Of a stretch of DNA of 50,896 bases, positions 16,964 through 30,949 are shown piece by piece. Where the stretch lies: positions 1-50,896 of the forward strand of contig CACZFF010000029.1 in NCBI GenBank assembly GCA_902780385.1, given 5' to 3'. The notes below the pieces were generated by a model, which was given only the letters and a program-made list of their open reading frames with translations, made no database searches and was not told where the DNA came from. Within the stretch, counting starts at the first letter, position 1. The number at the start of each line of letters is the position of its first letter. The DNA is from an uncultured Lachnospiraceae bacterium (GTDB lineage Bacteria; Bacillota; Clostridia; Lachnospirales; Lachnospiraceae). A program made the translations under genes and the position numbers.

Positions 16964-17142
16964 GAAGAGTGAAAAATATTGCCGATGCAATATTTTTCAC
17001 TCCGGATGTTTGTGCCGGAGCACAAACATCCCCTGATGTCAACGAGAAATCGTCTTCACGAATTTCTCGTTGACGATGCCTACGCACTGAAGACGATGCC
17101 TACGCACTGAAGTGCTCCGGCATGTTTTGGAAGAGTGAAAAA
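16964..17142 (+). repeat. structured element A: three hairpins with loop-tail complementarity
   Basis: H1: GAGTGAAAAATATTGC (16967-16982), loop CGAT, perfect complement to 17002. H2: GGATGTTTGTGC (17004-17015), loop CGGA, perfect complement to 17031. H3: 17038-17073 with loop CTTC and one bulge. A 20-nt tandem repeat (17072-17111) follows. The tail GTGCTCCGGCA (17112-17122) is the exact complement of TGCCGGAGCAC in H2 (17013-17023). GAAGAGTGAAAAA stands at both ends (16964-16976 and 17130-17142). Element B near 29.4 kb has the same order. Probably a structured RNA or cruciform-forming mobile element; no coding frame. It occupies most of the 411-base gap. Confidence 0.75.
17072..17111 (+). repeat. 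exact 20-nt tandem duplication inside element A
   Basis: GACGATGCCTACGCACTGAA occurs twice, head to tail, between hairpin 3 and the tail of element A. Confidence 0.9.
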
Positions 17143-17196
17143 AACCGGCTTCGGCCCAATGCCTTTAAGTCACTGGCATTGGGCCGAAGCCGGTTT
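17142..17196 (-). terminator. terminator of the minus-strand MalEFG-type operon
   Basis: A perfect 22-bp stem (17142-17163 with 17175-17196, core CCGGCTTCGGCCCAATGCC) with an 11-base loop. On the minus strand it is followed by seven T. A second smaller hairpin with a T9 run lies at 17217-17243 on the plus strand. Confidence 0.88.
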
Positions 17197-17270
17197 ACGT
17201 AAAAGTTTCTTCTGCTGCGGGGCCTTAAGGGGCCGTTTTTTTTTATGGACATTTAAGCAAACACACAATA

Positions 17271-18128
17271 TTACCCTTTGACACCGCCGCTCAGTCCATC
17301 GACGTAATATTTCTGCATGCGCAGGAACAGGATGGCGATCGGGATCGAGATCAGCACCGCCCCGGCCGCAAAGCATGTGTACCAGTTATCGATGTATTCC
17401 TTCTCCAGCATTTTCCACAGACCGATCGCGACCGTGTACTGATCCGCATTGGCGCGGCAGATGACCTTTGCGAAGATGAAGTCAACCCAGGGAGCGATGA
17501 AAGAGGTCAGGATCGTGTATATAATGATCGGCCTGGACAAAGGAAGCGTGATTTTGGTGAAGACCTGCCAGTGTGTGCAGCCATCGATCATGGCAGCCTC
17601 ATCGATCGAAATGGGTATAGTGTCAAAAAAGCCCTTGGCGATCTGGAAGGAAAGCGCTGCTCCTCCGGAATAACACAGGATGAGAGCAAGCGGGATCAGC
17701 GATCCTTCCGTCAGCCCCACAGCTTTCAGGATGAAATAGACCGCGACCATGCTCATGAATCCGGGGAAGAGCCCCAGGATCATAGCCATGTTCATGTAGG
17801 GCTTGCGGAACTTAAAACGAAGCCTCGAGAGGCAGTAGGCGACACTGAGCACAAAGAAGGTGGACAAAATGCAGGAAAACACTGCGATGATCAGTGTATT
17901 TGTAAACATTCTCGGGAAATTCAGGATGGTTGTGTCCGTAAAGAGCTTTTTGTAGTTGGCCAATGTGTAAGATTTTGGAAAAAATGTCGACACATAGGAT
18001 CCCTTTTCCGCGCGGAAGCTGGTGAGAATGACCCAGAAGATGGGGAACAGCCAGATTACAGCCAGGACTGCCAGGATGATATGCACGATCACATTATTGC
18101 GGGTTCGCTTTGTTTTTGCGCTGTTCAT
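17271..18128 (-). CDS. sugar ABC transporter permease, MalG type
   Basis: A 285-residue inner-membrane permease of the carbohydrate-uptake (CUT1) family with six hydrophobic segments. The cytoplasmic EAA loop reads DEAAMIDGCTHWQVFTKITL, and the C-terminus YVDGLSGGVKG is the MalG-type ending that reaches into the ATPase. It overlaps the stop of the MalF-type gene by one base. No ATPase gene is near, so a shared MsmK-type ATPase elsewhere is expected, as is usual for CUT1 importers in Firmicutes. Confidence 0.95.
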   Translation of the reverse strand: MNSAKTKRTRNNVIVHIILAVLAVIWLFPIFWVILTSFRAEKGSYVSTFFPKSYTLANYKKLFTDTTILNFPRMFTNTLIIAVFSCILSTFFVLSVAYCLSRLRFKFRKPYMNMAMILGLFPGFMSMVAVYFILKAVGLTEGSLIPLALILCYSGGAALSFQIAKGFFDTIPISIDEAAMIDGCTHWQVFTKITLPLSRPIIIYTILTSFIAPWVDFIFAKVICRANADQYTVAIGLWKMLEKEYIDNWYTCFAAGAVLISIPIAILFLRMQKYYVDGLSGGVKG

Positions 18129-19504
18129 CAGAAACCTCCTTCTTCCTTGTAGGATTTAGTGTTGCGGTAAGTCAGCAGGGAGCCGACAGCAAGGATGACG
18201 AAGGTCAGGATGCCGACGACCGCGCCGATGTTATAGTACTGCTTCTCTATGGTCAGCTTGTAGAGCCAGGTGACCAGAAGATCTGTATCGCCTGCTGTGG
18301 AGGCCAGGTTGGTCACAGGGTCGCCGCCGGAAAGAAGGTAGATCACATTGAAGTTGTTCACATTCGCCGTAAAGGTGGCAATCAGGTAAGGTGTCGTCAC
18401 ATAGAACATATAGGGCAGGGTGATCGAGAAGAACTGCTGCACCTGGTTTGCTCCGTCCACCTCGGCTGCTTCATAAAGGTCTGCAGGAATGTTCTGCAGA
18501 ACGCCCGTCAGCTGCAGGAGGGTATAGGGCACGCCCACCCAGATATTGATGACGATGACGGTGATCCTTGCCCATGTAGCATTGGTAAAGAAAGGCAGGC
18601 TTGATCCGGCGGGGATCAGACCGACATTGCGGAGCATCACATTGACGGCGCCTTCCGGCTGCAGCATGGTGCGCATGATCAGCAGGGAAACGAACATGGG
18701 CACTGCGCAGGACAGCACAAAGCAGAACCTCCAGAAGCCTTTTATTTTCGTGTCTTTCCGGTTGATCAGGATCGCCAGGATCATTCCGAAGAAGTAGTTG
18801 GTGAAGGTCGCGAAAAAGGCCCAGACCAATGTCCAGAGGAGGACTTTCCAGAATGTACCGCCCAGAACAGAACTTCTGTCAAAGAGAGTTGCAAAATTCC
18901 TAAGCCCGACCCAGTCAAACAGCACCAGATGGTTGCCTATCTTGCTGTAATTGGTAAAGGCCATGCAGATCATATAGATCAGGGGCAGGATTGTGAGCAC
19001 AATAATGAAAAACATGGGCGGTGTCATGAGTGTATAAGGCAGGTTTTCATCCAGAAGGCTTTTCAGGTCCTCTGTAAAAGAAGGCACATGGCTGCCCGCC
19101 CGGTCCAGCATTTCCGCCCTGTAGACGCTCCGCATACCGGCGCGCCAGATCACGAAGAACAGGACAATGATCATGATGATCCCCAGCCCGTTGAGCAGGA
19201 TCAGAATGGACTGGTCGCCTTTGGTATACAGATATACCTGAAGCTCTTCGTTCCAGACCTCTTTCTGCGGCACTGATCCGAGACCGGCCAGCATGGCGAG
19301 ACTGTGGAAGCCGCTGCGGATCATGAACATCACAAAAGCGATCTCTATTGCCAGATAAAGAGCACCCTTGATGACCTGTTTGTGTAATAAACAGCCCAGT
19401 CCCATGACCAGCGCAGAGAGTCTGGTCTTAGTCCCTCCGCTTTGTAGGATTTGTGACAGGCTTGGGTTTGACCGGCCGACATAGCTTCTGTTTTTTTCTT
19501 TCAT
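18128..19504 (-). CDS. sugar ABC transporter permease, MalF type
   Basis: A 458-residue permease of the CUT1 family, partner of the MalG-type protein. It has a long N-terminal part with extra hydrophobic segments (LGCLLHKQVIKGALYLAIEI and IIMIIVLFFVIWRAG) and a periplasm-side domain, as in MalF. The EAA loop is YEAAEVDGANQVQQFFSI. The gene is between binding protein and MalG genes in the order E-F-G. Long MalF proteins like this usually serve maltose/maltodextrin or related oligosaccharides, but the substrate is not proven by sequence. Confidence 0.95.
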   Translation of the reverse strand: MKEKNRSYVGRSNPSLSQILQSGGTKTRLSALVMGLGCLLHKQVIKGALYLAIEIAFVMFMIRSGFHSLAMLAGLGSVPQKEVWNEELQVYLYTKGDQSILILLNGLGIIMIIVLFFVIWRAGMRSVYRAEMLDRAGSHVPSFTEDLKSLLDENLPYTLMTPPMFFIIVLTILPLIYMICMAFTNYSKIGNHLVLFDWVGLRNFATLFDRSSVLGGTFWKVLLWTLVWAFFATFTNYFFGMILAILINRKDTKIKGFWRFCFVLSCAVPMFVSLLIMRTMLQPEGAVNVMLRNVGLIPAGSSLPFFTNATWARITVIVINIWVGVPYTLLQLTGVLQNIPADLYEAAEVDGANQVQQFFSITLPYMFYVTTPYLIATFTANVNNFNVIYLLSGGDPVTNLASTAGDTDLLVTWLYKLTIEKQYYNIGAVVGILTFVILAVGSLLTYRNTKSYKEEGGF

Positions 19505-19522
19505 GTCGATTCCTCCCCTTTT

Positions 19523-20773
19523 CTACTGGATTCCGTTGCTGTTCATGGCTTTATTCATCGCTTTTGTCTGTTCTGCGGCGTTTTTGTGCGTCACAGTACC
19601 GTTGCGGATCGATTTGCCCATGTTTTCGATCGGTGCCCAGCAGTTCGCCATACGGGAGACGAAGGGCTGGAGTTTGGATGTCCTGTCAAACGTTTCGTTC
19701 TGAGCCAGGAAAACGGGATCTGAGGTGATGACGGGATCCTCCTGAAGCTCTGTTGAACATGGGATCACGGAACGAAGCTCATAGTGAAGTCTCTGCGCTT
19801 CTGCGCTGCCCAGATAGATTGCAAGCTCAACCGCGGGAACCATGTACTCGGAATGGGCATTTACACCGATCGCTTTGGAACCGGAATAGGCGTACATCTG
19901 CCTGGGGGTGCCGTCCAGTGTATATTCGGGAAGAGCGGCTGCTCCCAGGTTATCACCCAGAATGTGCTTGACACTTTCGTAGTCCCAGGAACCGGAAAAA
20001 ATAGCGTTGATGGATCCGTCCCGCAGGCCGGCCATTCCGGAACCGTCCGCATCCACAACAAAATGGGGATTATGGATCAGGTCGATCAGGTAATTTGTGA
20101 CTTCAACCGCATTATCGCCGCCGAAGTCCACCCCTTCTTCTTCCCGGGTGCCGTCGCCGAACATGGTGCAGCCGTTTCCGAAATAAAAGGAAGGCAGATA
20201 CCAGCCGTTTGTAAAGGGAAATGACACGACGCCCTTCTGCAGCATTGTCTCAAGACTCTTTATATCTTCTTCCGAGAACACGCTCTTGTCGTAATACATA
20301 AACCATGTGTTTGTCGTGAAAGGAACACCGTAGAGAAATCCGTCCAGGGTGACGGAATTCAGCAGTGCCTCACTGGCATTCTCACGGATCTGCTTCTCGT
20401 ACTTGCCGCCAAACTTTGCAATCGCCTGGGAATCTGTCAGGGTAGTGATATTGTCATTGGCGTACATAAAGACATCTGCACCTGCCTCCGGGTCCTGCGC
20501 TATGGAGTTGGCAGCGGTCGCTTCATCTGCAATACCGTACACGAATGTGATGTCCCACTCGGGATGCTGCTCCGCAAAGGCTGCGCAGCATTTCTGCAGC
20601 CACTCTCCGGAACCCCTGGACTGATCTTCCGAAGGCGACCAGACCATCAGCCTGACTTTTTCGCTGTCGCCTTCTGATCCCCCTGCAGCGCTGCATCCGG
20701 CCATAACCGACATGACCGCCAGAAACAGCAGAACAGCAGCTGCAGCTGAAAGGCGTTTCCATTTCTGCCTCAT
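19523..20773 (-). CDS. sugar ABC transporter substrate-binding lipoprotein, MalE type
   Basis: A 416-residue extracellular lipoprotein. The signal peptide ends in the lipobox VMAGC (Cys26). The mature part follows the family-1 (MalE) pattern: VRLMVWSPSEDQSRGSGEWL, AAFAEQHPEWDITFVYG, DVFMYANDNITTL, SAIFSGSWDYE-like GSINAIFSGSWDYES, and a C-terminal ENMGKSIRNGTVTHKNAAEQ that closes the fold. It delivers its sugar to the MalF/MalG pair encoded just downstream (18 bases). The upstream 263 bases should contain the promoter. Confidence 0.95.
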   Translation of the reverse strand: MRQKWKRLSAAAAVLLFLAVMSVMAGCSAAGGSEGDSEKVRLMVWSPSEDQSRGSGEWLQKCCAAFAEQHPEWDITFVYGIADEATAANSIAQDPEAGADVFMYANDNITTLTDSQAIAKFGGKYEKQIRENASEALLNSVTLDGFLYGVPFTTNTWFMYYDKSVFSEEDIKSLETMLQKGVVSFPFTNGWYLPSFYFGNGCTMFGDGTREEEGVDFGGDNAVEVTNYLIDLIHNPHFVVDADGSGMAGLRDGSINAIFSGSWDYESVKHILGDNLGAAALPEYTLDGTPRQMYAYSGSKAIGVNAHSEYMVPAVELAIYLGSAEAQRLHYELRSVIPCSTELQEDPVITSDPVFLAQNETFDRTSKLQPFVSRMANCWAPIENMGKSIRNGTVTHKNAAEQTKAMNKAMNSNGIQ

Positions 20774-21036
20774 TCAGATACCTCCTTCGCCCGTTCTAAT
20801 CAATTTTTGCTGACTCCTGTCAATTCCTGATAGATTAGTAAACAACTTTGAGCATTCTCTCTCGATCAGAGTTATTTTTAGCGGCTTTCTTTGCTATATG
20901 ATGCAAGAAAGTGTCTCAGATCTGATCGATAAGTGTTATGATAAAAAAAATATTAATCATTGTTTATGCATTTATCAAGTAGAGGTATTGACTGTAGAAG
21001 TATTAACTGAGGTATTAGATAAAGGAGGAGCGTTCT
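20774..21036. other. intergenic region between MalE-type gene and nucleoside permease pseudogene
   Basis: AT-rich divergent control region. TTGACA-like and TATAAT-like hexamers occur on both strands but no pair has convincing spacing. AAAGGAGG before 21037 is the ribosome binding site of the broken gene. No ORF or clear inverted repeat. Confidence 0.4.
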
Positions 21037-21754
21037 ATGGAACTGTCCAAACGGACTAAGACCGGCGGCAGAAATAAGCCTATAAACAGGTTTCGATGGA
21101 GTGTTTTGCTTATTCTTCTTGTCACGATATGTATTCAGGGCCTTTCTGCCTGTTCGTTTTCACCAAAGAAGACAGCGCTTCGGGTGCTTATCATACCCAA
21201 ATTTGAGATTGGTCAGATGAGCGGGGATTGCGGACTATGAATACAAATCTCTGAATTCCGACCTTTGCGAGAAGGCTTTTGAGATGATCAAAGACTGTCC
21301 GCTGCAGACCACGGAAGAAGCAAAGACAGTCATGAGGAAAAATATCGCAGCCTATGAAGAGGAAGATATTCTTCCTGCGGTCAAGAAGGGCACTGCTCTT
21401 ACAGGGGATAATTACTGGAAAGGTATTTTCGGTCATGCGACGGCAGATTTTATCGCGGACTATTACGGATGCGCGGATCCCTATATGGTCACTGAGATGG
21501 AAGAGATCGCAATCGCGAATGCTGCAGATTGCTTTGATCTGCTGGACCGGATCATTTCACTGCGCGTCATCGTAAATATGGATGTGTTCCTGAATAATGA
21601 GACCCCGGAGAGTACCTGGGGCGAATACAAAAGCTTCAATGAAAAGGTGGAGAATGACAATACGGAGACCCTGGATATCTTTGAACCGGCCATGCATAAC
21701 TTGTTTGATACCGCTCGCGTGGTGATTGATGCCGCAATAAAAGGGGAATTATAA
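21037..21754 (+). pseudogene. purine nucleoside permease-like (NUP) lipoprotein, internal deletion
   Basis: The first 63 codons from 21037 encode a lipoprotein signal (LLILLVTICIQGLSAC) and RVLIIPKFEIGQMSGD, the opening of NUP-family nucleoside permease/phosphorylase-like proteins. Then the frame runs to a stop at 21240. From about 21231 another frame reads DYEYKSLNSDLCEKAFEM and continues through IAAYEEEDILPAVKKGTALT, NYWKGIFGHATADFIADYYG and MEEIAIANA to 21754, the family's C-terminal third. Roughly 150-180 central residues are gone and the frames do not match, so the gene is dead. Confidence 0.78.
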
Positions 21755-21830
21755 TATTATCGGCTGAAAAATAGTATCAGCTGATAAGGCAGGATGCAGC
21801 AGAATATACGATTTGAAAGGCGGTAGGCAC

Positions 21831-22805
21831 ATGATGAAAAAAATATCGGTCCGTTTATGTCTGATAATGTTGATGATCATCATACCCGTGCAGAGTGTAA
21901 GCGCGTACGAGGACTGGGTCAAACAATATCTGGATCCGGCAGATCATAAAATAGAGATGGGCGATGAAACCGGGTATGCGAATTGCTATGCGGCTTATCT
22001 CGATGTGGTTGAAAAATGTATTGAACAGTACGGAGATACAGATTATGCTGACGGGCCGTCCTCCGGAACACAGATAACAACAGGGCTCTCTTTTCTCAAG
22101 CTTGTTGATTTCAACGGAGACGGAACAGAGGAACTGGTGCTTGTTTTCAACTCCCGCCCTAAAGAAGACGCCGGCCGCTATACTACATGGGACTATGTTT
22201 TCAATGTCTGGAGTTTTGACGGGGAGCAGGCTGTTCTGCTTCAGGATGGAACGGGTCTGTTTGGCACAAATGGCGGAATACAGACTGTATGCTTTGTGAA
22301 AAATCAGTATGGGTCTTTCCTGCGCAGAGGCGCTGCAGACAGCTTTCAATATTATTTTTATTATGGATATAAAAAAGACAATGATTTCGGGCTCGCCAAA
22401 GTTCTTGTCTGGGAAGAACTTTATGATGAAGCGGCAGGAGATATGAGGCGGGAATACACCGTTGACGATGAACTTGTATCTGAAGAAAAGTACAATGCCG
22501 AAATGGAGACCTGGAATGGCAATTCTTCAGATTCGGAGGCCTTCCTTCTGACCCCCTGGAATACAGAAGAGAAGGAGAAGACGAAGGCTGTGATCGATGA
22601 GACGATGCGCTTTCTGCAGCAGCACTCCCGGGACAAGGAGGAACCCGAGGAGAAGGAGGAACCAAAGGAGAAAGAGGAACCAAAGGAGAAAGAGGAACCT
22701 AAGGAGAAGGAAGAACCCCGGGAAAAGGAGGAAGCCGGGGACAAGGAGAAAACGAAGGAGATTTCAGTACCTGAATGGCTGCTGCATATCGGTGAAAAGC
22801 GGTAA
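21831..22805 (+). CDS. secreted hypothetical protein with acidic/basic repeat tail
   Basis: A 324-residue exported protein. Start at 21831 or 21834 (MMKKISVRLCLIMLMIIIPV) behind GAAAGGCGG; signal peptide cleavage is likely after VSA. The body contains KLVDFNGDGTEELVLVFN, a calcium-loop-like FG-GAP/dockerin type motif common in lipoproteins and secreted proteins of these bacteria, and WDYVFNVWSFDGEQAVLL. The C-terminal 50 residues are repeats of KEEPKE with net mixed charge, ending WLLHIGEKR. No anchor motif is visible. The repeats are encoded by 18-base units from about 22634 to 22736. Function unknown. Confidence 0.8.
   Translation: MMKKISVRLCLIMLMIIIPVQSVSAYEDWVKQYLDPADHKIEMGDETGYANCYAAYLDVVEKCIEQYGDTDYADGPSSGTQITTGLSFLKLVDFNGDGTEELVLVFNSRPKEDAGRYTTWDYVFNVWSFDGEQAVLLQDGTGLFGTNGGIQTVCFVKNQYGSFLRRGAADSFQYYFYYGYKKDNDFGLAKVLVWEELYDEAAGDMRREYTVDDELVSEEKYNAEMETWNGNSSDSEAFLLTPWNTEEKEKTKAVIDETMRFLQQHSRDKEEPEEKEEPKEKEEPKEKEEPKEKEEPREKEEAGDKEKTKEISVPEWLLHIGEKR
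22634..22736 (+). repeat. 18-nt tandem repeats encoding KEEPKE-type tail
   Basis: Five imperfect units of the pattern GAGAAGGAGGAACCAAAG within the 3' part of the secreted-protein gene; a likely site of length variation. Confidence 0.8.
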
Positions 22806-22879
22806 AGCGACAGTAAATATTGCGGCTGAGGTCATATAGGGAATCGGCTGCACTTATATAATATGCAAGGAGGCACTAA

Positions 22880-23557
22880 ATGAAATTCTGTATTGATGAT
22901 GCAAATGTAGAGAAGATCCGCCGCATTTATGAGTATTATCCGGTTGACGGTGTTTCCACCAATCCTTCGATCCTGGCAAAATCCGGAAGAGACCCCTATG
23001 AAGTACTGAAAGAGATCCGCTCTATTATCGGTGAGGACGGAGAACTGTTCGTGCAGGCCACTGCGGCGACGGCAGAGGGCATGGTGGAGGAAGCCCACAG
23101 GATCGTGGAAGTGCTGGGAAAGACCACCCTGATAAAGATCCCCTGTGTTCCAGAAGGCTTCAAAGCCATGAAAGAGCTGAAAAAAGAGGGAATCCGCTTC
23201 ATCGGCACTGCGATCTACACAGCAATGCAGGGCTTCCTGGCAGCCAAATGCGGCGCGGAGTATGTGGCTCCCTATGTAAACCGTATTGACAACATGGGCT
23301 TTGACGGGGTGCAGGTCTCCAAGGACATCCATGACGCGATCACGGCAAACGGCCTGGACAGCGGCCTTCTGGCAGCAAGCTTCAAGAACAGCCAGCAGGT
23401 TCTTGAACTGACAAAGTATGGCGTGAAGGCAGTTACGGTAGCACCGGATGTCATCGACGGCCTTGTAAAGAACGCAGCGATCGACGCGGCGATCGATCAG
23501 TTCACCAGGGACTTCCAGGGGCTGGTCGGAGAAGGAAAGACAATGGCTGACTGCTGA
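22880..23557 (+). CDS. fsa: fructose-6-phosphate aldolase / transaldolase-like protein
   Basis: A 225-residue class I aldolase of the FSA/TalC group. Motifs in order: FCIDDANVEKIRRI, VSTNPSIL, FVQATAATAEGMVEEA, IKIPCVPEGFKAM with the Schiff-base Lys86, GTAIYTAMQGFLAAKCG and YVNRIDNMGFDG. The length fits the short FSA subfamily rather than 310-residue transaldolases. AAGGAGG stands before the ATG and a terminator follows. It carries out a reversible C3 transfer or aldol cleavage on fructose-6-phosphate-type substrates. A C-terminal fragment of a close paralogue lies at 38814-39017, after the polyol operon. Confidence 0.93.
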   Translation: MKFCIDDANVEKIRRIYEYYPVDGVSTNPSILAKSGRDPYEVLKEIRSIIGEDGELFVQATAATAEGMVEEAHRIVEVLGKTTLIKIPCVPEGFKAMKELKKEGIRFIGTAIYTAMQGFLAAKCGAEYVAPYVNRIDNMGFDGVQVSKDIHDAITANGLDSGLLAASFKNSQQVLELTKYGVKAVTVAPDVIDGLVKNAAIDAAIDQFTRDFQGLVGEGKTMADC

Positions 23558-23601
23558 TTTACGGTCAGGGTACAGGATATTTTGGGTATAGTTCAGGAAA
23601 A

Positions 23602-23650
23602 CAGGTGCAGATTCCTTTTGGGGCGGTTGCACCTGCTTTTTTTCGTTTTT
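23602..23650 (+). terminator. terminator after fsa
   Basis: CAGGTGCA (23602-23609) pairs with TGCACCTG (23628-23635), followed by a long T-rich run. Confidence 0.85.
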
Positions 23651-23736
23651 TTTGAATGGACATTTATTTACATTAGATTTGCAAGGTGATAAATTAAAAC
23701 GGTATAACGATTATAAATGAGTTATATACAGCAAAT

Positions 23737-24291
23737 ATGAATGTATCGTCACCTGACATGTTTTTTGAAAATAAGGATGTGGAAGCAACTGAGGATGCAA
23801 AAGCAGCTGAAGGTGAGACAGCGGAAAATGCTGCTGTTACGAAAGATGCAGATGCAGACGAAAATGCGGAAGCAGCGGAGAACAGTGCAGCACAGACTGA
23901 AACAACGACCAGGACAAGGGTCTACACCAAGGTGACAAAGGAAGCAGAGCCGACGACGAAGGTCAGATACATCTACAACGATGAGGACGGCCGGCTGACC
24001 GTCACCGGCATCGAAGCCAATGACGCGGACCGCGGTGAGACTGCAACATTCGTCAACAAGTACACTCCTCCCAAGACGCCCGACAAACCTGATAAACCGG
24101 ACAAACCTTCAAAACCTTCAAGACCTTCAAATCCTTCAAATCCTTCGAATCCGCAGAGAAGGAACCCTCCTACGGGAGACAGCAGCAATGTAATGCTGTG
24201 GCTCATTCTTCTTGCAGGTGCAGCGGCAGCTGTCGGCACGCTGATCTATGTGCGCCGCAAAAACCGCGAAGAGGATGAGAAGGCTGCCTGA
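23737..24291 (+). pseudogene. remnant of an LPXTG-type surface protein (Cna-B pilin-like)
   Basis: The 184-residue frame has no signal peptide and no ribosome binding site. Its second half is a typical wall-anchored tail: ATFVNKYTPPKTP (the end of a Cna-B/SpaA-type pilin domain), a Pro/Lys/Ser spacer (KPDKPDKPSKPSRPSNPSNP), the sortase motif NPPTGD, the membrane segment VMLWLILLAGAAAAVGTLIY and a basic end RRKNREEDEKAA. The first 60 residues are acidic low-complexity. The large N-terminal part expected for such proteins is absent, so this is a 3' remnant after deletion rather than a working gene. Confidence 0.7.
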
Positions 24292-24358
24292 AGCACATAG
24301 AATAACGAAGGGCACGTCATCACATTGCGGACGGCACTAAGTTAAACAGGCAATGAAA

Positions 24359-24393
24359 AACCGCCCCGGATCATTCGTGATCCGGAGGCGGTT
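24359..24393 (+). terminator. terminator hairpin
   Basis: AACCGCCCCGGATCA, loop TTCG, TGATCCGGAGGCGGTT (24378-24393): 15-bp stem with one mismatch, then CTTCATT. The remaining gap to 24704 shows no convincing gene; a 61-codon frame at 24412 lacks a ribosome binding site. Confidence 0.8.
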
Positions 24394-24704
24394 CTTCATT
24401 ATTGGACTTATATGGACAGGTTTAAATCTTTGAGCAGCTCTGAAGATACATATCCCGAAAATCAAGAAAAAACCCGGTATGGGAAATCAACTCTTGATAC
24501 ATTGTCTAAAGGACAATATATTATAGTCAATAGGAATTTCTGCCTCATATATATCTTCCGGCAGGGAACGGCTGAGAGGCGGCCGGCAGGAAGATAAAAG
24601 GGATTTATATAAGGCAGAATTGTATAGAAGAGTTTAAAATAAAAAGTGATGAAAACACACCAGGTTGAAAAAGCTTATGGGGAATAAGAAAGGAGAAGAA
24701 ACTA

Positions 24705-25928
24705 ATGATACTTCATCAGATCATCACGTCACTGTTGGAAACAGATGCCTACAAGCTGTCCATGGGGCAGGCAATATACCATTATTTCAGCAGATACAAG
24801 ACGACATGGTCATTTAAGTGCAGAAATAAAGACGTACATTTCACACCTGAGATGGTACATGAGATCCGTCAGCAGATACAGGTTTACTGCAATTTGCGGT
24901 TTACAGAGGACGAGCTGGCCTATATTGACAAGATCCGCTGGATCAAAGGCTCCTATGTCGATTTTCTCCGTCTCTGGAAGCCCAGGTTCGAAGATTTCGA
25001 GATTACAAGTGATGCGGAATGCGGGCTTTCCATTGAAACCAGAGGAACCTGGCTCAATACGTCCATGTATGAGATTCCGGTTCTTGCCATTGTGAATGAG
25101 GTATACTTCCGCATGGCACATGGTTACGACAGTCTGTTCGCGGGCTTCAAGGAAAGGCTCGAAGAGAAGATCGGATGGCTGCAAAGGGATGAACTGTGCA
25201 TCGGGACCTTCAGTGAATTCGGGCTCCGCCGCAGGCTTTCTGCGGAAGCGCAGGACCTTGTGGTCAGGCGCCTGAAAGAGGCGGACCTCGGCAGTTCTGA
25301 TTTTATCGGAACGTCCAATGTATTCCTTGCAAAGAAATACGGCCTTGTTCCGGTCGGAACGATGGCACACGAGTGGATCATGTGCGTCGGACAGGGAGAC
25401 CACAGTCAAAATCCCGCCTATTCCAACCGCCATGCACTGGATGCATGGGTGAAGGAATACGGCGTCCTGAACGGAATCGCCCTTACGGACACAATCACAA
25501 CGGACTGCTTCCTGCGTGATTTTGACCTTACTTTTGCCACCCTGTTCTCCGGGACACGGCACGATTCCGGCGACCCCTATGAATGGGGAGAGAAGATGAT
25601 TTCCCACTATGAGTCTCTGGGAATCGACGCAAAGACCAAGACCCTGCTGTTTTCCGACAGCCTGAATTTTGAAAAAGCTGATGCTATAAACAGCTATTTC
25701 CGCGGCAGGGCCAAGGTTGCGTTCGGAATCGGAACATACCTGTCCAATGACACAGAAGTCCCGGCACTGAACATCGTCATGAAGACCACTGCCTGCAACG
25801 GACAGGCCGTTGCAAAACTGTCAGATACACCAGGAAAAGGCATGTGCAAGGATGAGAGTTACATCCAGTATCTTGAAACCTGTATCCGATGGAGGATGGA
25901 ACACTTGCCGCACTCGCTGGCAAAGTGA
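24705..25928 (+). CDS. pncB: nicotinate phosphoribosyltransferase
   Basis: A 407-residue enzyme of the NAD salvage (Preiss-Handler) pathway, joining nicotinate and PRPP with ATP to nicotinate mononucleotide. Family motifs: LLETDAYKLSMGQAIYHYFS at the N-terminus, FGLRRRLSAEAQDLV, GTSNVFLAKKYGLVPVGTMA followed by HEWIM, DTITTDCFLRDF, TRHDSGDPYEWGEK and FGIGTYLSND. Length matches the E. coli-like PncB group. AAAGGAGAAG lies ahead of the ATG. Single gene, ended by the hairpin near 26015. Confidence 0.96.
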   Translation: MILHQIITSLLETDAYKLSMGQAIYHYFSRYKTTWSFKCRNKDVHFTPEMVHEIRQQIQVYCNLRFTEDELAYIDKIRWIKGSYVDFLRLWKPRFEDFEITSDAECGLSIETRGTWLNTSMYEIPVLAIVNEVYFRMAHGYDSLFAGFKERLEEKIGWLQRDELCIGTFSEFGLRRRLSAEAQDLVVRRLKEADLGSSDFIGTSNVFLAKKYGLVPVGTMAHEWIMCVGQGDHSQNPAYSNRHALDAWVKEYGVLNGIALTDTITTDCFLRDFDLTFATLFSGTRHDSGDPYEWGEKMISHYESLGIDAKTKTLLFSDSLNFEKADAINSYFRGRAKVAFGIGTYLSNDTEVPALNIVMKTTACNGQAVAKLSDTPGKGMCKDESYIQYLETCIRWRMEHLPHSLAK

Positions 25929-26014
25929 GACGGAAGGCTCTTACAAAGACAGCATAGATCGCATTCGGCCTACAAGACACGCAAAATGATCCGGAAACTG
26001 AATGGAAGAACAAT

Positions 26015-26048
26015 GGCTCTTCACCTTAGCGGGTGGAGGGCCTTTTTT
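26015..26048 (+). terminator. terminator after pncB (CTTCACC/GGTGGAGG type)
   Basis: GGCTCTTCACC, loop TTAGCG, GGTGGAGGGCC (26032-26042), T6. Nearly the same hairpin recurs at 39171 and 44611. Confidence 0.8.
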
Positions 26049-26187
26049 GTTTGTGGTAAAAATAAAAGAACTATGGTAGGGTAAAAGTACACTATTCGGG
26101 ACATTGCGTCACACTCAAAACGACAACAGCACAAAGAGGATTTTTACCGGGATGCAATGATCCAGTTTTGACAGAAAGGTATTTATT

Positions 26188-27471
26188 ATGAGTGAAACCA
26201 GGACAATACGGATTACATCCGGCGACAGCTTACATACGTATGGAAGCATTGGAACTATGGATTATACGGTGAGACTAAGTGTCAGACTTGACAGCCTGAT
26301 CGATGGAGAGGTGCTGAAGACTGCACTGGAAAGTACGCAGAAGCGCTATCCGTATCTGAAACTCAGAATGAAAAAACAGGGAGCTGACCTATACTACGAA
26401 GAAAATCCTCTTCCGGTCTGTCTCTTCAATACGGACCGGAGGATCAGCCTCAACTGTGAGGAGACTAATTATCATATTTGGGCTGTCTGTTATAAAGACG
26501 ACTATGTCTATCTTGATTTCTACCACGGAATCTGTGACGGGACCGGAATGTACATGGTCCTGAGCACGCTTTTGTATTATTACATTGACGGTAAGTACGG
26601 GAATTGTGACAGCACAGGGATCAGGACTCTTGAAGACCCCATAGATGAAAGAGAAAGCATTGACCCGACGGATTCTATACCGCCAATGGATCCGGCTCTT
26701 CTGGCCAAAGCTGGAGTCAACATTGAACCCGCGTTTTCACTGATCAGCGATGGAGAGACGACACTATCAGATCATGTGATCGTAAGGGATGTGATGATTC
26801 CGGACAAAGAACTGCTTAAGTTCACTTCGGAAAATGACGCGAGCCCGGGAACATTTTTAGCTGTGATCATAGCAAGAGCAATTGAACAGTGCACTCCCGT
26901 AAAAGATAAAGAGCTCCGCGGATCCTATGTGATAAACGCCAGACCCATGCTGGACTTTCCTTATACGCATCATAACTGTGTAAACACTGTATTTGCCAAT
27001 TTCAGTGACCGGTTCATGGCAATGCCGATCGACCGGCAATGTACCGCCATGCGGGGGATGACGATCCTTCAGAGCGATCGGGACAGGGTATCTTTTGCAA
27101 TCATGAGGGGCAACCTTGTGCGCCAAATGTGTCTGCAGGCTCCGACCCTCGAGGCAAGAAAGGCGGCCTTCGGCCAGAGTCTTGCCAAAGGAACAGATCT
27201 CTTCACCTTTATGGTGAGCTATGTCGGTAAGTGGAAATATGAGGCATTGGGGAAGCATATAGTGGAATTCTGGACACATGTACCCCCGGCAAACAATTTC
27301 CTTGTAGAACTGGCTGCTGTAAAGGGCAGCATTTTCCTTTCATTCCATCAGAGATTCAAGGAGGATAAGTATTATAAGGCAGTCCTGAAACAGCTTGAGG
27401 ACATTGGCATTCCCTATATCGAGAAGAGGGTAATGGAGAACGATATTTCATATTTTCCGGATGTAATGTGA
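26188..27471 (+). CDS. condensation-domain-like acyltransferase
   Basis: A 427-residue protein with the chloramphenicol-acetyltransferase/NRPS-condensation fold. The catalytic HxxxDG motif is YHGICDGTG around residue 112, preceded by strands like VYLDFYHG; an N-terminal LKTALESTQKRYPYLKLRM segment and the later YVINARPMLDFP region match stand-alone condensation or alcohol-acetyltransferase-like (PapA5/AATase) proteins. No carrier or adenylation domain is nearby, so it probably transfers an acyl group between free or CoA-bound small molecules. Start at 26188 follows AGAAAGG. A strong inverted repeat begins five bases after the stop. Substrate unknown. Confidence 0.82.
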   Translation: MSETRTIRITSGDSLHTYGSIGTMDYTVRLSVRLDSLIDGEVLKTALESTQKRYPYLKLRMKKQGADLYYEENPLPVCLFNTDRRISLNCEETNYHIWAVCYKDDYVYLDFYHGICDGTGMYMVLSTLLYYYIDGKYGNCDSTGIRTLEDPIDERESIDPTDSIPPMDPALLAKAGVNIEPAFSLISDGETTLSDHVIVRDVMIPDKELLKFTSENDASPGTFLAVIIARAIEQCTPVKDKELRGSYVINARPMLDFPYTHHNCVNTVFANFSDRFMAMPIDRQCTAMRGMTILQSDRDRVSFAIMRGNLVRQMCLQAPTLEARKAAFGQSLAKGTDLFTFMVSYVGKWKYEALGKHIVEFWTHVPPANNFLVELAAVKGSIFLSFHQRFKEDKYYKAVLKQLEDIGIPYIEKRVMENDISYFPDVM

Positions 27472-27476
27472 AAGAG

Positions 27477-27544
27477 GGGAGACAGGGGACGGTTCTCTGT
27501 CTCCCTTTTGTGAAATGGAGACAGAGAACCGTCCCCTGTCTCCC
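27477..27544. repeat. inverted pair of the GGGGACGGTTCTCTGTCTCC repeat
   Basis: GGGAGACAGGGGACGGTTCT and the rest of a 28-base arm (27478-27505), an 11-base loop, then the perfect complement (27517-27544). It forms a 28-bp hairpin directly after the acyltransferase stop codon. Confidence 0.9.
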
Positions 27545-27558
27545 TGTCTCCCCAAAAC

Positions 27559-27611
27559 GTGATATAGCTCAGCAAGCCGGTACAGACCCTCATCGGGGTC
27601 TGTACCGGCTT
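27559..27611. terminator. bidirectional terminator with GTGATATAGCTCAG box
   Basis: GTGATATAGCTCAG (27559-27572) precedes a perfect 16-bp stem, AAGCCGGTACAGACCC (27574-27589) with 27596-27611, and a T-rich end. It lies between convergent genes. The same box plus CCGGT hairpin recurs at 39038, 43170 and, degenerate, 49569. Confidence 0.85.
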
Positions 27612-27666
27612 GTTTATTTTCTTTATCGCCCGGGACGCGCGAGCGAGTCCTGAACATTAGTGTCTT

Positions 27667-28761
27667 TCAGGAGCGGAGAGAATAAGCCGATGCCTGGCCG
27701 GTAGTCCGGCGGGCAATCAGTTTGGGATCATATTCCATACGGATGATCATGTCGCTGTCAGCACCGGATCTCCTGCTGATATTTTTGCGGTAAATCATCT
27801 CGACAGCCATATGTCCCTTCTGCAGGGAGAAGTGCTCCACGGTCGTCAGCGAGATTTGCGGCATGGCGGAGTACAGATTGTTGTCAAATCCGGCGACGCT
27901 GACATCTTCCGGAACCCGGATTCCGCGGTCCGCAAGGGCAGCAAGAATACCGAAAGCTATATCGTCGCTGTTCCCGACAAAGGCTGTAGCCGGTGTAGCT
28001 GCGTCCAGGGCGCGAATCGTCATATCGTAGCCGGTGCGGTATTCCGCGCCGGTATGCGGATACTCCGCATAGGCTTTCTGCGTAGGGCAGAAGAGCTTGA
28101 TGTAAGCCGGATTAAGCCTGTTCTCGCGATAATATTGCTGCATACCTGACAGTCTGCGCGTGCGGCTGAGTTCTTTTTTGACGACCGGTCCGGAGATAAA
28201 GGCGATGTGCTTGTGACCCAGCTCCAAGAGATGCTCCGCCATCAGCCTGCCGGGCTTCTGGCTGTCCAGCTCCACTGAGTTGAAACGGATTCCCTCAGGC
28301 TTATCTCCGATTGAAACCACCGGAATGCGTCCGGCGAGAGCATTGGCTTCCGTATACTTGGTCAGCGGATAGAGGGAAATCACACCCGCAAGTTCATTTT
28401 CGGCAAAAAGGTGGAAGTAGGCATCCTCCCGCTCTGCACTCCGGAAAGTCACAGCCGTCAGGGAGGTGTAGCCATATTCCCGGGCCTTCTCAATAATGGA
28501 ATGAATGACAGAGCTGTAATAGCCGTTGGAAATCGTCGGGCACAGGATCATGATCGTCTGCGACAGAGACCGGTCCGGTGCCTGTTTCTTCTTTTCCGGC
28601 TTCTGATAGCCGAGCGACTTGGCTGCCTTCTTTACTTTCTGCACCGTCTCCTCTCCGAAGGAGACGTTTTTCTTTTCACTCAGAATCATGGAGACTGTCG
28701 ACTGGGAAACGCCCGTGTATTCAGCGATGTCCCTTGTCGTTACTTTGTTTCTCTTGCCCAT
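27667..28761 (-). CDS. LacI family transcriptional regulator
   Basis: A 364-residue regulator. Start at 28761 (MGKRNKVTTRDIAEYTG) follows GAGGAGG; the longer frame to 28851 is not used. The helix-turn-helix and hinge read TTRDIAEYTGVSQSTVSMIL and VKKAAKSLGYQ, followed by a periplasmic-binding-protein-like effector domain (ILCPTISNGYYSSVIHSIIE, HKHIAFISGPV, TAFVGNSDDIAFGIL, ISLTTVEHFSLQKGHMAVEM). It is divergent from the polyol PTS operon and is its likely regulator; repeated TTTGATTAA half-sites between them are candidate operators. Confidence 0.94.
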   Translation of the reverse strand: MGKRNKVTTRDIAEYTGVSQSTVSMILSEKKNVSFGEETVQKVKKAAKSLGYQKPEKKKQAPDRSLSQTIMILCPTISNGYYSSVIHSIIEKAREYGYTSLTAVTFRSAEREDAYFHLFAENELAGVISLYPLTKYTEANALAGRIPVVSIGDKPEGIRFNSVELDSQKPGRLMAEHLLELGHKHIAFISGPVVKKELSRTRRLSGMQQYYRENRLNPAYIKLFCPTQKAYAEYPHTGAEYRTGYDMTIRALDAATPATAFVGNSDDIAFGILAALADRGIRVPEDVSVAGFDNNLYSAMPQISLTTVEHFSLQKGHMAVEMIYRKNISRRSGADSDMIIRMEYDPKLIARRTTGQASAYSLRS

Positions 28762-28903
28762 CTGTATCCTCCTCTTTTTTGAAAATACAGGCGGTTTTCC
28801 TTCAACAGCCTGTAAGCAGGACAGCAGTATTCTTCGGCGCGCAAGACCCACGTGCGAGTCCTGGATGCATGCCGCAACAGTGAAAAAAATCTTTTTTGAT
28901 TTA

Positions 28904-28958
28904 TTTTGATTAACATGGAGCGGGAGTTTTTTTATTAATCAAAACCACGCTTTGATTA
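28904..28958. promoter_or_regulatory. TTTGATTAA half-sites, candidate LacI operators
   Basis: TTTTGATTAAC (28904-28914) and the inverted pair TAATCAAA (28936-28943) and TTTGATTA (28951-28958), with a further GTTAATCAAA at 29065. They lie in the divergent region between the LacI gene and the PTS operon. The assignment to this LacI protein is inference. Confidence 0.5.
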
Positions 28959-29096
28959 CTAATATTTTAACAATGATTAATGGTTCCTGCAACATATTGC
29001 ACTCAAAAAGGCACTTTTGCAATCTATGACAGTGTTTTTTACTTCATCAGCCTGTAATCTGGCTGTTAATCAAATGAAAAATATTAATAAAAAATG

Positions 29097-29120
29097 GCCT
29101 GAAACCCTTATATTTACTGG
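29097..29120. repeat. 24-nt dispersed repeat, copy 1
   Basis: GCCTGAAACCCTT then ATATTTACTGG; 22 of 24 bases match 43092-43115. It sits in the long leader of the PTS operon. The remaining part of the 727-base gap (28762-29488) holds the half-sites above, an ATTGC/GCAAT inverted repeat (28996-29023) and a weak promoter candidate with TTGACA at 29132. Confidence 0.7.
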
Positions 29121-29334
29121 CTTTCACAGGTTTGACATGCACCAAAGCACATGTTAATGTCTTATCAGAAAAACAAACACAAATCCGCGGCGGAACAAAC
29201 AGAATGGACGGAAAGAAGCAAAGTAAACAATACATCACTTCCATAATGACCGGACTGCAGCAAGGTCATAGTAACCGGAACGAAAACAGGAAACAAGGGC
29301 GCGGACAGCAGTGTACAGAGCGCCTGACAAGGAG

Positions 29335-29488
29335 GAAGAGTGAAAAATAATACTGATGCATTATTTTTCACTCAAGAGGTTTGCGTCGAAGCGCCGCAAA
29401 CCTCTGCCGGAGCCCATCGGAGAAATTACCTTCGTGATTTCTCCTCGGGTGTTTCAGCCCAGAAGCGCTTCGACAAGGAGGAAAAAGA
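29335..29488 (+). promoter_or_regulatory. structured element B: three hairpins with loop-tail pairing, leader of the PTS operon
   Basis: H1: GAGTGAAAAATAAT (29338-29351) with 29360-29373. H2: GAGGTTTGCG (29376-29385) with 29395-29404. H3: GGAGAAATTAC (29419-29429), loop CTTC, 29434-29444. The tail GCGCTTCGAC (29465-29474) is the exact complement of GTCGAAGCGC in the H2 loop (29385-29394). It ends immediately before AAGGAGG (29475-29481), the PTS gene's ribosome binding site. Hairpin order and the GAGAAAT-CTTC-ATTTCTC core equal element A at 17 kb, while the loop-tail pair has different bases. A translational control RNA is the best reading. Confidence 0.65.
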
Positions 29489-30949
29489 ATGGGAAGCAAT
29501 TCAACGGTTACCAAAGCAGCTCCCCGGGAGAAGACATCCATATCTCAGAAGCTGCAAAAATTCGGGGCATTCCTCGCCGGAATGGTCATCCCCAACATCG
29601 GAGCATTTATCGGCTTCGGCCTGATCACAGCATTTTTCCTGGCGACAGGATGGACGCCGGATGAACGTCTCGCAACACTGATCTCACCGATCCTGAACAA
29701 TCTGCTGCCTGTGCTGATCGCTTATACCGGTGGTAAGATGGTCGGCGACAACCGGGGCGGTGTTCTGGGTGCATTCGTCACTGTAGGTGCGATCGTAGCA
29801 GTTGAAGGAACTCCGATGTTCATGGCTGCCATGATCCTCGGACCGCTTTCCGGCCTGATCATCAGAAAGTTTGACCATGCGATAGACGGAAAGATCCCCG
29901 GCGGATTCGAGATGATCGTCAATAACTTTTCTCTCGGTATCATCGGCGCAATCCTCTGCTGCTTCGCTTATCTGGTATTCGGACCTGTCATGCATACCGT
30001 GACAGCGGTCCTTACCAACGGCGTCAACTGGATCATCGCACACAATGCGCTCCCGCTCTCTGCGATCTTCGTAGAGCCCGCCAAGGTCCTTTTCCTCAAC
30101 AATGCACTGGACCATGGTATTTTCGGTCCGATTGGATATGAGCAGGTTAAGACAATGGGTCACTCGGCACTCTTTATGCTGGTTCCCAATCCCGGCCCCG
30201 GTCTTGGTCTCCTTCTTGCCTACTGGGTATTCGGTAAGGGCGAGATGAAGGAAGCAGCTCCCGGCATGATCCTGATCCACTTCTTCGGCGGCATCCATGA
30301 AGTATATTTCCCCTATGTCCTCTCCAACCCCGTTACGATCATCGGTATGATCGCCGCAGGCATCGTCGGAACCGGCACACAGACACTGCTGAATGTCGGT
30401 ACAGTTGCAACCCCCTCTCCGGGAAGTATCTTCTCCGTCATCGCCCTGTCACCCCCTAACTGCATGTTCGGCGTTCTTCTCTCCGTCGTAGACTCCTGTC
30501 TGGTCTCCTTCCTGCTCAATGCGATCTTCGTACGGATGCAGTACAGAAAGAACGCGGATACTGCACTGGATACTTCCGTCATTCCGGAGGGTCTGCCCGG
30601 TGCAGGAGAAGGCACAGCAGCTTCCGGTGCTCGGACAGTGGATCAGCTTGATCTCAGCAATATTCATCTGATCGTTGTTGCGTGTGACGCAGGCATGGGT
30701 TCCTCCGCGATGAGCGCAGCAGCCCTGAAAAAGAAAGTGAAGGCTGCAGGCCTCCCGATTGAAGTCATCAACTATGCAATCTCCAAGATCCCCGCGGAAG
30801 CGGATCTGGTCATCACACATGAGAAGCTGACAGGCACGGCCCTGGCGGCGCAGCCCGACAAACAGCATCTCTCGATCAGCAATTATCTCAAGGCACCTGA
30901 ATATGATGAACTTGTGGAGAGACTGCTGGATGAGCATGAAGGCCTTTGA
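29489..30949 (+). CDS. PTS mannitol-family EIICB component
   Basis: A 486-residue phosphotransferase permease. Residues 20-345 are the mannitol-type EIIC domain (LQKFGAFLAGMVIPNIGAFI, LPVLIAYTGGKMVGDNRGGV, GFEMIVNNFSLGIIGAILCC, ILIHFFGGIHEVYFPYVLSN with the substrate-binding HEVYFPY). A linker is followed by an EIIB domain whose phosphorylated Cys399 stands in VACDAGMGSSAMS. There is no EIIA; it is supplied by the next gene. First gene of the operon, with AAGGAGG directly after the structured leader. It imports and phosphorylates a hexitol-like or other polyol; mannitol itself is uncertain because no MtlD accompanies it. Confidence 0.93.
   Translation: MGSNSTVTKAAPREKTSISQKLQKFGAFLAGMVIPNIGAFIGFGLITAFFLATGWTPDERLATLISPILNNLLPVLIAYTGGKMVGDNRGGVLGAFVTVGAIVAVEGTPMFMAAMILGPLSGLIIRKFDHAIDGKIPGGFEMIVNNFSLGIIGAILCCFAYLVFGPVMHTVTAVLTNGVNWIIAHNALPLSAIFVEPAKVLFLNNALDHGIFGPIGYEQVKTMGHSALFMLVPNPGPGLGLLLAYWVFGKGEMKEAAPGMILIHFFGGIHEVYFPYVLSNPVTIIGMIAAGIVGTGTQTLLNVGTVATPSPGSIFSVIALSPPNCMFGVLLSVVDSCLVSFLLNAIFVRMQYRKNADTALDTSVIPEGLPGAGEGTAASGARTVDQLDLSNIHLIVVACDAGMGSSAMSAAALKKKVKAAGLPIEVINYAISKIPAEADLVITHEKLTGTALAAQPDKQHLSISNYLKAPEYDELVERLLDEHEGL

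Follow-up and report, generated by a model that had tools for sequence, protein, structure and literature searches.

A candidate mobile 5'-untranslated-region cassette with a covarying loop-tail helix in Lachnospiraceae

Two three-hairpin elements on one contig

The DNA analyzed here (the window) is the 50,896-nucleotide (nt) stretch of contig CACZFF010000029.1, from the 3.3-Mb draft genome of an uncultured Lachnospiraceae bacterium (GCA_902780385.1; the source genome, G000). It contains two copies, elements A and B, of a structured repeat made of three hairpins (H1, H2 and H3) and a 3' tail. Element B lies in front of an mtlA-like gene. We found that A and B belong to a large family, and we propose below that the family is a mobile cassette of 5' untranslated regions (5' UTRs). 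Both elements and the order of their parts had been recognized in an earlier reading of the letters (the original prediction), and the coordinates held on rechecking (Table 1).

Table 1. Features of elements A and B and of the gene downstream of B. SD, Shine-Dalgarno sequence; PTS, phosphotransferase system.
Feature	Position	Strand	Remark
Element A, H1, 36-nt hairpin GAGTGAAAAAT...ATTTTTCACTC	16967..17002	+	exact arms at 15 places in the source genome, each listed on both strands
Element A, H2 hairpin	17004..17031	+	apical TGCCGGAGCAC (17013-17023) is the pseudoknot 5' strand; homologous loop-tail helix covaries
Element A, H3 hairpin	17038..17074	+	
Element A, 20-bp unit GACGATGCCTACGCACTGAA, two tandem copies between H3 and tail	17072..17111	+	
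Element A, tail GTGCTCCGGCA	17112..17122	+	pseudoknot 3' strand
GAAGAGTGAAAA after element A	17130..17141	+	SD-less end where canonical copies carry an SD and start codon
GACAAGGAGGAA, SD-bearing direct repeat 5' of element B	29326..29337	+	element-free locus L351 retains one copy
Element B, H1 hairpin	29338..29373	+	
Element B, H2 hairpin	29375..29405	+	apical GTCGAAGCGC (29385-29394) is the pseudoknot 5' strand
Element B, H3 hairpin	29413..29449	+	outer stem CCC/GGG (CGC/GCG in many relatives)
Element B, tail GCGCTTCGAC	29465..29474	+	pseudoknot 3' strand
GACAAGGAGGAA, second copy of direct repeat	29472..29483	+	holds SD AGGAGG (29476-29481) before the downstream start codon
Mannitol PTS transporter gene (mtlA-like), directly downstream of B	29489..30949	+	PRK15083, E 1e-167; TIGR00851, E 2.2e-126; each below its curated cut-off

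As had also been predicted, the apical stretch of H2 and the tail are exact reverse complements of each other in A and in B. Both elements folded better than their dinucleotide shuffles (z of -10.6 for A and -6.3 for B), and none of 200 shuffles was as good.

The two elements represent different forms. B has the canonical form. A is an SD-less variant, of types I/II, in which the tail is followed by GGTCGGAAAGAGTGAAA or a similar sequence instead of an SD. The tandem 20-bp unit of A is absent from B; in other type I copies (e.g., L010 and L018) a stretch matching the unit is present once. A small upstream reading frame has A at its 3' end and takes its stop codon from the GAGTGA of the element (judged by eye against genome G028, in which the corresponding place has no element). 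B is found at the same place in genome G055 (upstream flank 84% identical) and is missing from genome G026 (both flanks 93% identical), where one copy of AGCGCTTCGACAAGGAGGAA is left. The identities point to G026 as the closer relative; in that case B would have been lost there by recombination between its flanking direct repeats. Alternatively, G026 may preserve the original empty site.

A family with a conserved loop-tail helix

We found many relatives of A and B. A covariance model (R1) was made from 36 compact copies (alignment A1; 37 picked by hand, with L078 excluded), in which base pairs were assigned to H1, H2 and H3 but not to the tail. Because the number of candidates scored was capped, copies and genomes are counted as minima: 150 candidates were scored in the source genome and in the runs of model R3 (below), 49 in the genus, 8 per genome in the family, and 7 in the class. 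R1 gave at least 89 rows in the source genome at E values up to 0.01, several of which were antisense echoes of palindromes, and at least 43 with E below 1e-8 (150 of 1271 candidates scored). It matched at least 46 of 62 genomes of the genus and at least 50 of 348 genomes sampled across Lachnospiraceae, in 48 of 333 genera. The 2.7-Mb genome G298 had at least 128 matches (150 candidates scored). One H2 type alone was present at 27 places in the source genome, and a BLAST search with a composite of this type matched 23 of 146 genomes, including the source genome. The original prediction had taken A and B to be members of a family and had suggested a covariance-model search of genomes as the check; the search returned many homologues.

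The family was not convincingly seen outside Lachnospiraceae in a class-wide sample and was not recognized as a named RNA. In that sample model R2 matched at least 6 of 391 genomes, four of which belong to Lachnospiraceae. The two matches outside (G522 and G632) were judged to be due to chance because H1 matches but little else does, and spread beyond the family was dropped. A known RNA family was also dropped: the window had no match in Rfam 15 at gathering cut-offs, in line with the original prediction, in which the structure was not recognized as a named motif. Six element loci compared with Rfam at E values up to 1 gave nine matches, all to unrelated families and below the gathering scores. 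Searches that could detect close relatives alone gave no match for element A in phages (blastn), for one relative (L205) in plasmids (blastn), or for two H2 patterns in viral contigs.

Members of the family are about 135-150 nt long. From 5' to 3' they consist of H1, H2, a short linker, H3, a spacer, the tail, 1-4 nt, the SD and the start codon. The element has GTGTGAAA or GAGTGAAA at its 5' end and the SD at its 3' end. H1 is typically GTGTGAAAAAT or GAGTGAAAAAT with the loop YGAT, H2 has an arm of ~9-12 bp and a loop of ~6-16 nt, and the outer stem of H3 alternates among CGC/GCG, CCC/GGG and GGC/GCC. Conserved unpaired bases are found in the loop of H1 (YGAT) and next to the outer H3 stem (GAT, AGA/ATC). 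The spacer between H3 and the tail often forms a small hairpin, H4.

We found that the structure covaries. Alignment A3 contained 94 matches from other genera (29 loci from the family-wide search and 60 picked by hand from its list). Over the whole structure, 95.9% of 4439 cells were paired, and two-sided changes occurred in 44 of 49 pairs. The covariation score was 0.385, compared to 0.112 for shuffled and no more than 0.063 for slid alignments. The loop-tail helix was not built into the alignment, because the tail is unpaired in the model. Nonetheless, it was 92.6% paired, with two-sided changes in 7 of 9 pairs (a count matched by 14 of 500 shuffles), and its covariation score of 0.242 was reached by none of 500 shuffles (0.132 shuffled; at most 0.075 slid). 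With 45 distinct H2 loop stretches from other genera, the helix score was 20.2 for each loop with its own tail and 15.5 after swapping, and none of 5000 permutations reached the former value. Pairing is kept across highly divergent loop and tail pairs (CCGGAGCGT/ACGCTCCGG, CCGCAGACGT/ACGTCTGCGG, TCGCAGGCAC/GTGCCTGCGG, and TTCCGAAGCGTAA with its 13-nt complement), and some copies pair poorly (e.g., 4 bp in L251). Judged from these sequences, the loop-tail pairing is real and beyond chance. The covariation that had been read from A and B alone is therefore borne out across the family: the bases differ, pairing is kept, and the two strands vary together rather than independently.

H4 shares the tail strand with this helix. 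Its score was 8.61 with its own tail and 7.56 with swapped tails (67 distinct tails; none of 5000 permutations as high); by the criterion applied, H4 is lacking for 7 of the 67 tails. Because the two structures share the tail strand and H4 fits its own tail better than a swapped one, H4 and the pseudoknot might exchange.

Several copies in the source genome and elsewhere are incomplete or rearranged. Matches to the model that consist of H1 alone were present at G000:C42:14227-14262 and G000:C26:32508-32543. Conversely, H1 is absent, or present as its 3' arm only, in L031, L033, L035, L039 and L044 (all G000), and L031 is joined directly to another hairpin that is followed by a run of T. In L017 (minus strand, from about position 601; G000:C40:64318), H2 is interrupted by another palindromic stretch with GGGGACGGTTCTGTGTCTCC. 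A shortened copy in genome G083 (L313, 1501-1576) lacks most of H1 and H3 but has H2, tail, SD and start codon, and its loop and tail are still complementary.

Position before genes and insertion sites

We found that in other genera the element usually lies in sense orientation just upstream of a gene. Family-wide, a start codon followed by an open frame of 60 or more codons lay between -25 and +40 nt relative to the match end in 88 of 94 R1 matches. The start criteria used were lenient, and R1 models part of the SD and start region. For this reason we built R3, which contains H1-H3 only, without tail or SD, and ran it on ten carrier genomes. We picked 40 new loci by hand (18 from G298, 8 from G312, 5 from G210, 4 from G177 and 5 from G073; all five genomes are also represented in A3). 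An SD and a start codon with at least 80 codons were found 31-53 nt past H3 in 31 of 42 R3 matches in the sense direction, in 0 of 42 in the antisense direction, and at 113 of 1680 random positions. Among the 11 misses, two (L385 and L400) continue into a second copy, and three (L408-L410) represent a single repeated unit. L408, L409 and L410 (G210) have identical flanks, tail and downstream frame start, as if the element were carried along within a larger repeat.

The sense-only position in 5' UTRs favors RNA over DNA as the selected form. The original prediction had left the choice between a pseudoknotted RNA and a selected DNA structure; selection on the loop-tail pairing is upheld, and the RNA form is now preferred.

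The downstream genes are diverse. Ten downstream proteins, picked by hand, were mtlA-like, sigF, a teichoic-acid-export-like ABC ATPase, phosphofructokinase, tyrS, porC/korC-like, mnmG, metK, glutamine-synthetase-like and aspartate-dehydrogenase-like. These are ten different functions, without the functional relatedness expected of a riboswitch.

The presence of the element differs between sister species. We joined the flanks of nine copies from the sister species G073 and G452 and searched with them. At five of the nine loci there was one continuous match in the sister species, that is, an element-free site, and in all five the element's place was between the native SD and the start codon. 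Three loci (L187, L217 and L228) were filled in both sister species. For two of these, a continuous match without room for the element was found in other genera (G076 and G068 for L187; G075, G076, G066 and G074 for L228). At the ninth locus, L221, the sister has no element, but the upstream sequence fails to align. This sister locus (L308, G452:C38) has a different upstream sequence and yet has GGAATGGAGGTTATCATG before the start, resembling the right end of the element.

The insertion joint, as far as it can be read from these sites, is not uniform. At L218/L275 the SD of the native AAGAAGAGGTGTACT^GATATG is retained on the left, and the right-hand SD is that of the element; L186/L276 is similar, with a difference of a few bases near the joint. 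The joint at L222 resembles a crossover within GGAGG. At L216 the native SD and that of the element are too alike to tell apart, and at L224 the SD on the right is similar to the native one. We rejected simple duplication of the SD at the target as a rule, given a non-native right-hand SD at two of the five empty sites (L218/L275 and L186/L276).

We also found that the SD stretches on the two sides of the element are often alike. At least 11 identical nt were present in 23 of 94 copies, compared to 2.0 expected by swapping (0 of 5000 permutations). Further loci, from partly the same genomes and with two copies identical to a third dropped, gave 11 of 40 compared to 1.7 expected (0 of 5000). 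For the 19 copies of G298 alone, 5 of 5000 permutations were as extreme. Tandem copies of the element occur, and part of the likeness is due to them, the left flank being the tail of another copy (L266 and L274). Because left and right stretches are more alike than swapped pairs, some insertion events, or later exchange, probably duplicate the SD.

Such an excess of identity is what target duplication would give, and it could indicate a repeat that acts at the level of DNA. The hairpins would then be ends recognized as single-stranded DNA, as in miniature inverted-repeat transposable elements (MITEs) or repetitive extragenic palindromic (REP) sequences, and the position in 5' UTRs would reflect a preference for SD-like targets together with survival of harmless insertions. 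The insertion differences between sister species fit this explanation, as does the occurrence of SD-less types in other intergenic places. However, no terminal inverted repeats were seen: the 5' and 3' ends, read by eye, are not complementary, and the H1 hairpin is at one end only. In addition, the right-hand SDs at L218/L275 and L186/L276 were not copied from the native ones, so that duplication is not the rule. Searches for a Y1 transposase likewise speak against this explanation. Of 16 carrier genomes, 10 had no match and another two had a fragment only, and the enzyme was commoner in genomes without an element match in the genus or family search (11 of 15). We consider a DNA-level repeat quite improbable.

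The Y1 results also do not support this transposase as the helper that moves the element, although a helper since lost, or missing from a draft, may apply. RVT_1 had no match in 5 of the 16 carriers. Some upstream copies are truncated at the 5' side (L266, L274, L244 and L234), a hint at reverse transcription. This hint is weakened because H1-only pieces also exist and because of the carriers without RVT_1. Movement must be taken to depend on some other kind of helper or on one that has been lost.

A possible mobile translation-initiation region and its relation to known elements

The explanation that best fits our results is that the family is a 5'-UTR cassette, mobile but non-autonomous, that assumes control of translation initiation; we give this reading a probability of roughly 0.62. 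The family, its covarying structure, its position and orientation, and the insertion differences between sister species are established at the level of sequence. The cassette would be moved by a helper and would enter in sense orientation between the SD of a gene and its start codon. Its 3' end would bring a new SD (AATGGAGG-type, or GACAWGGAGG in B-like copies). Because the new SD is at a normal distance from the start codon, the gene would still be readable, now from the SD of the element; place and spacing are what point to translation from this SD. The element would act as RNA. In the transcript, H1, H2 and H3 would form as local hairpins. The tail, which closely precedes the SD, would dock into the H2 loop as a pseudoknot and so keep the SD open. 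When the tail is undocked, its CUCC or CUUC could base-pair instead with the SD or with H4, which would lower initiation. The original prediction had the family and the pairing right and overlooked the SD and start codon beside the tail, the entry between a native SD and its start codon, and the SD-less subfamily to which A belongs.

We compared this proposal to folding-energy calculations. In calculations without the pseudoknot, the SDs of 89 copies were mostly paired (mean openness 0.25). Blocking the tail strand raised the mean to 0.39, and blocking a neighboring control stretch gave 0.28. The SD became more open in 38 copies when the tail strand was blocked and in 21 with the control. This shift agrees weakly with docking as the open state. 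The pseudoknot may serve regulation, or it may merely give a compact fold that leaves the SD free wherever the element lands.

Alternatively, the family might be a true cis-regulatory RNA class that responds to a general signal, either as a translational riboswitch or as a leader bound by protein, and that has spread over many 5' UTRs, with the exchange of pseudoknot and H4 beside the SD as the switch. A fold of five helices, including the pseudoknot, that is conserved in 48 genera would be expected of such a class, as would its place beside SD and start codon, the conserved unpaired bases in the H1 loop and around H3, the competing H4 and the shift in SD openness. However, loop and tail sequences change freely, the ten sampled downstream genes have ten functions, H4 is missing for some tails, and matches per genome range from none to more than 100. 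On balance we regard this explanation as unlikely.

Some of our results weigh against the mobile cassette. As judged from the flanks, the left and right SD stretches are too alike for an element that always brings its own SD. In the source genome a place in a 5' UTR is not the rule: after 38 matches were merged into 30 distinct copies, 9 were near a start codon. Most copies read there are of the SD-less types I/II, and we infer that these types, including A, are derived variants that multiplied in other intergenic places. Blocking the tail strand made the SD less open in 16 of the 89 copies (10 with the control). Pairing of the tail with the SD (CUCC-GGAG) is frequent, but showed no covariation beyond composition (190 of 500 shuffles as good), and we dropped it as a conserved helix. 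No helper was found, and the five carriers without RVT_1 are also without a Y1 match. Finally, all genomes are drafts, many of them metagenome-assembled, and the copies within one genome are related, so that counts are not independent and the statistics ignore kinship.

A further point of this kind concerns reading frames within the element. An NTG is present in the first bases of H1 (GTGTGAAAAAT, GAGTGAAAAAT) in 86 of 91 copies, and the frame from it is open through the element in 46 of the 91, compared to 0 and 11 for the other frames; lenient start criteria were applied here too. Ribosomes could conceivably start there from the native SD and unfold the element during passage, coupling it to the gene as a leader-peptide attenuator. 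We consider this highly improbable: the frame is open in only those 46 copies, about half of the copies have a stop before the gene in that frame, and relatedness inflates the count. In six copies (L188, L229, L240, L216, L231 and L248) the NTG frame continues in frame with the downstream gene, and an N-terminal extension of ~47 residues is possible.

Small mobile repeats are usually regarded as DNA parasites that disturb the genes they hit. The cassette we propose would differ in carrying its own ribosome-binding site to where one is needed, before genes such as tyrS, metK, mnmG and sigF, in 48 genera of a family prominent in gut and rumen. It offers a testable case of a mobile element that spreads before essential genes without breaking them. 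In a bolder form of the proposal, which we hold to be doubtful, the element is a mobile translation-initiation region that seeks out the interval separating SD and start codon; in some genomes it would have replaced the ribosome-binding sites of more than 100 genes, whose translation would be controlled jointly via the pseudoknot, so that a transposable 5' UTR would have created a regulon. If the pseudoknot does control the SD, then in some species a few per cent of the genes would have their translation set by a single family of elements, and differences in insertion would give rise to differences in expression between relatives.

The translational riboswitches preQ1-II and SAM-II have a loop-tail pseudoknot directly beside the SD, and the family described here resembles them in this respect. 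Unlike them, it has many copies per genome, lies before unrelated genes, does not conserve loop and tail, and has no Rfam match at cut-off. A derivative of a group II intron, or an IStron, was considered and dropped, given the carriers without RVT_1 and the lack of an Rfam match in the window. We found no description of the element in the literature searched, with most subscription papers outside that search.

Three kinds of small repeats are closest in other respects. BOX elements of Streptococcus pneumoniae are small, modular, structured interspersed repeats, transcribed as 5' or 3' parts of operons, that are reported to affect the downstream gene and are thought to be non-autonomous (PMC3049150). 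The family shares with them small size, interspersed distribution, strong secondary structure and probable non-autonomy. It is set apart by description: BOX elements have the organization boxA-boxB(n)-boxC, and that paper contains neither "pseudoknot" nor "ribosome binding", nor is insertion between SD and start codon described in its relevant passages (PMC3049150). REP sequences and REPINs, associated with TnpA-REP (RAYT) Y1 transposases, are likewise high-copy, palindromic repeats thought to be non-autonomous (PMC3116915, PMC3733652, PMC8266576). However, a REP is described as a palindrome of 20-40 bp with a GTAG or CGTC tag at one end (PMC3733652), whereas members of the family are 135-150 nt long with other ends. 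They have three hairpins and a loop-tail helix, lie only in sense in the 5' UTRs of other genera, and often occur in genomes without a Y1 match.

MITEs and Rickettsia palindromic elements are short, non-autonomous insertions near or in genes (PMC10969869), as the family is short, near genes and probably non-autonomous. In contrast to these, no terminal inverted repeats were seen, the copies lie mostly before rather than within reading frames, and the SD is brought by the element; the review does not use the words "Shine", "start codon" or "ribosome" (PMC10969869). As to the target duplication typical of MITEs, identity of left and right SD is in excess, two of the five empty sites have no duplication, and one more has a crossover-like joint. 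We rate position and cargo, a ribosome-binding site carried into the gap between SD and start codon, as what distinguishes this family from the known non-autonomous interspersed elements.

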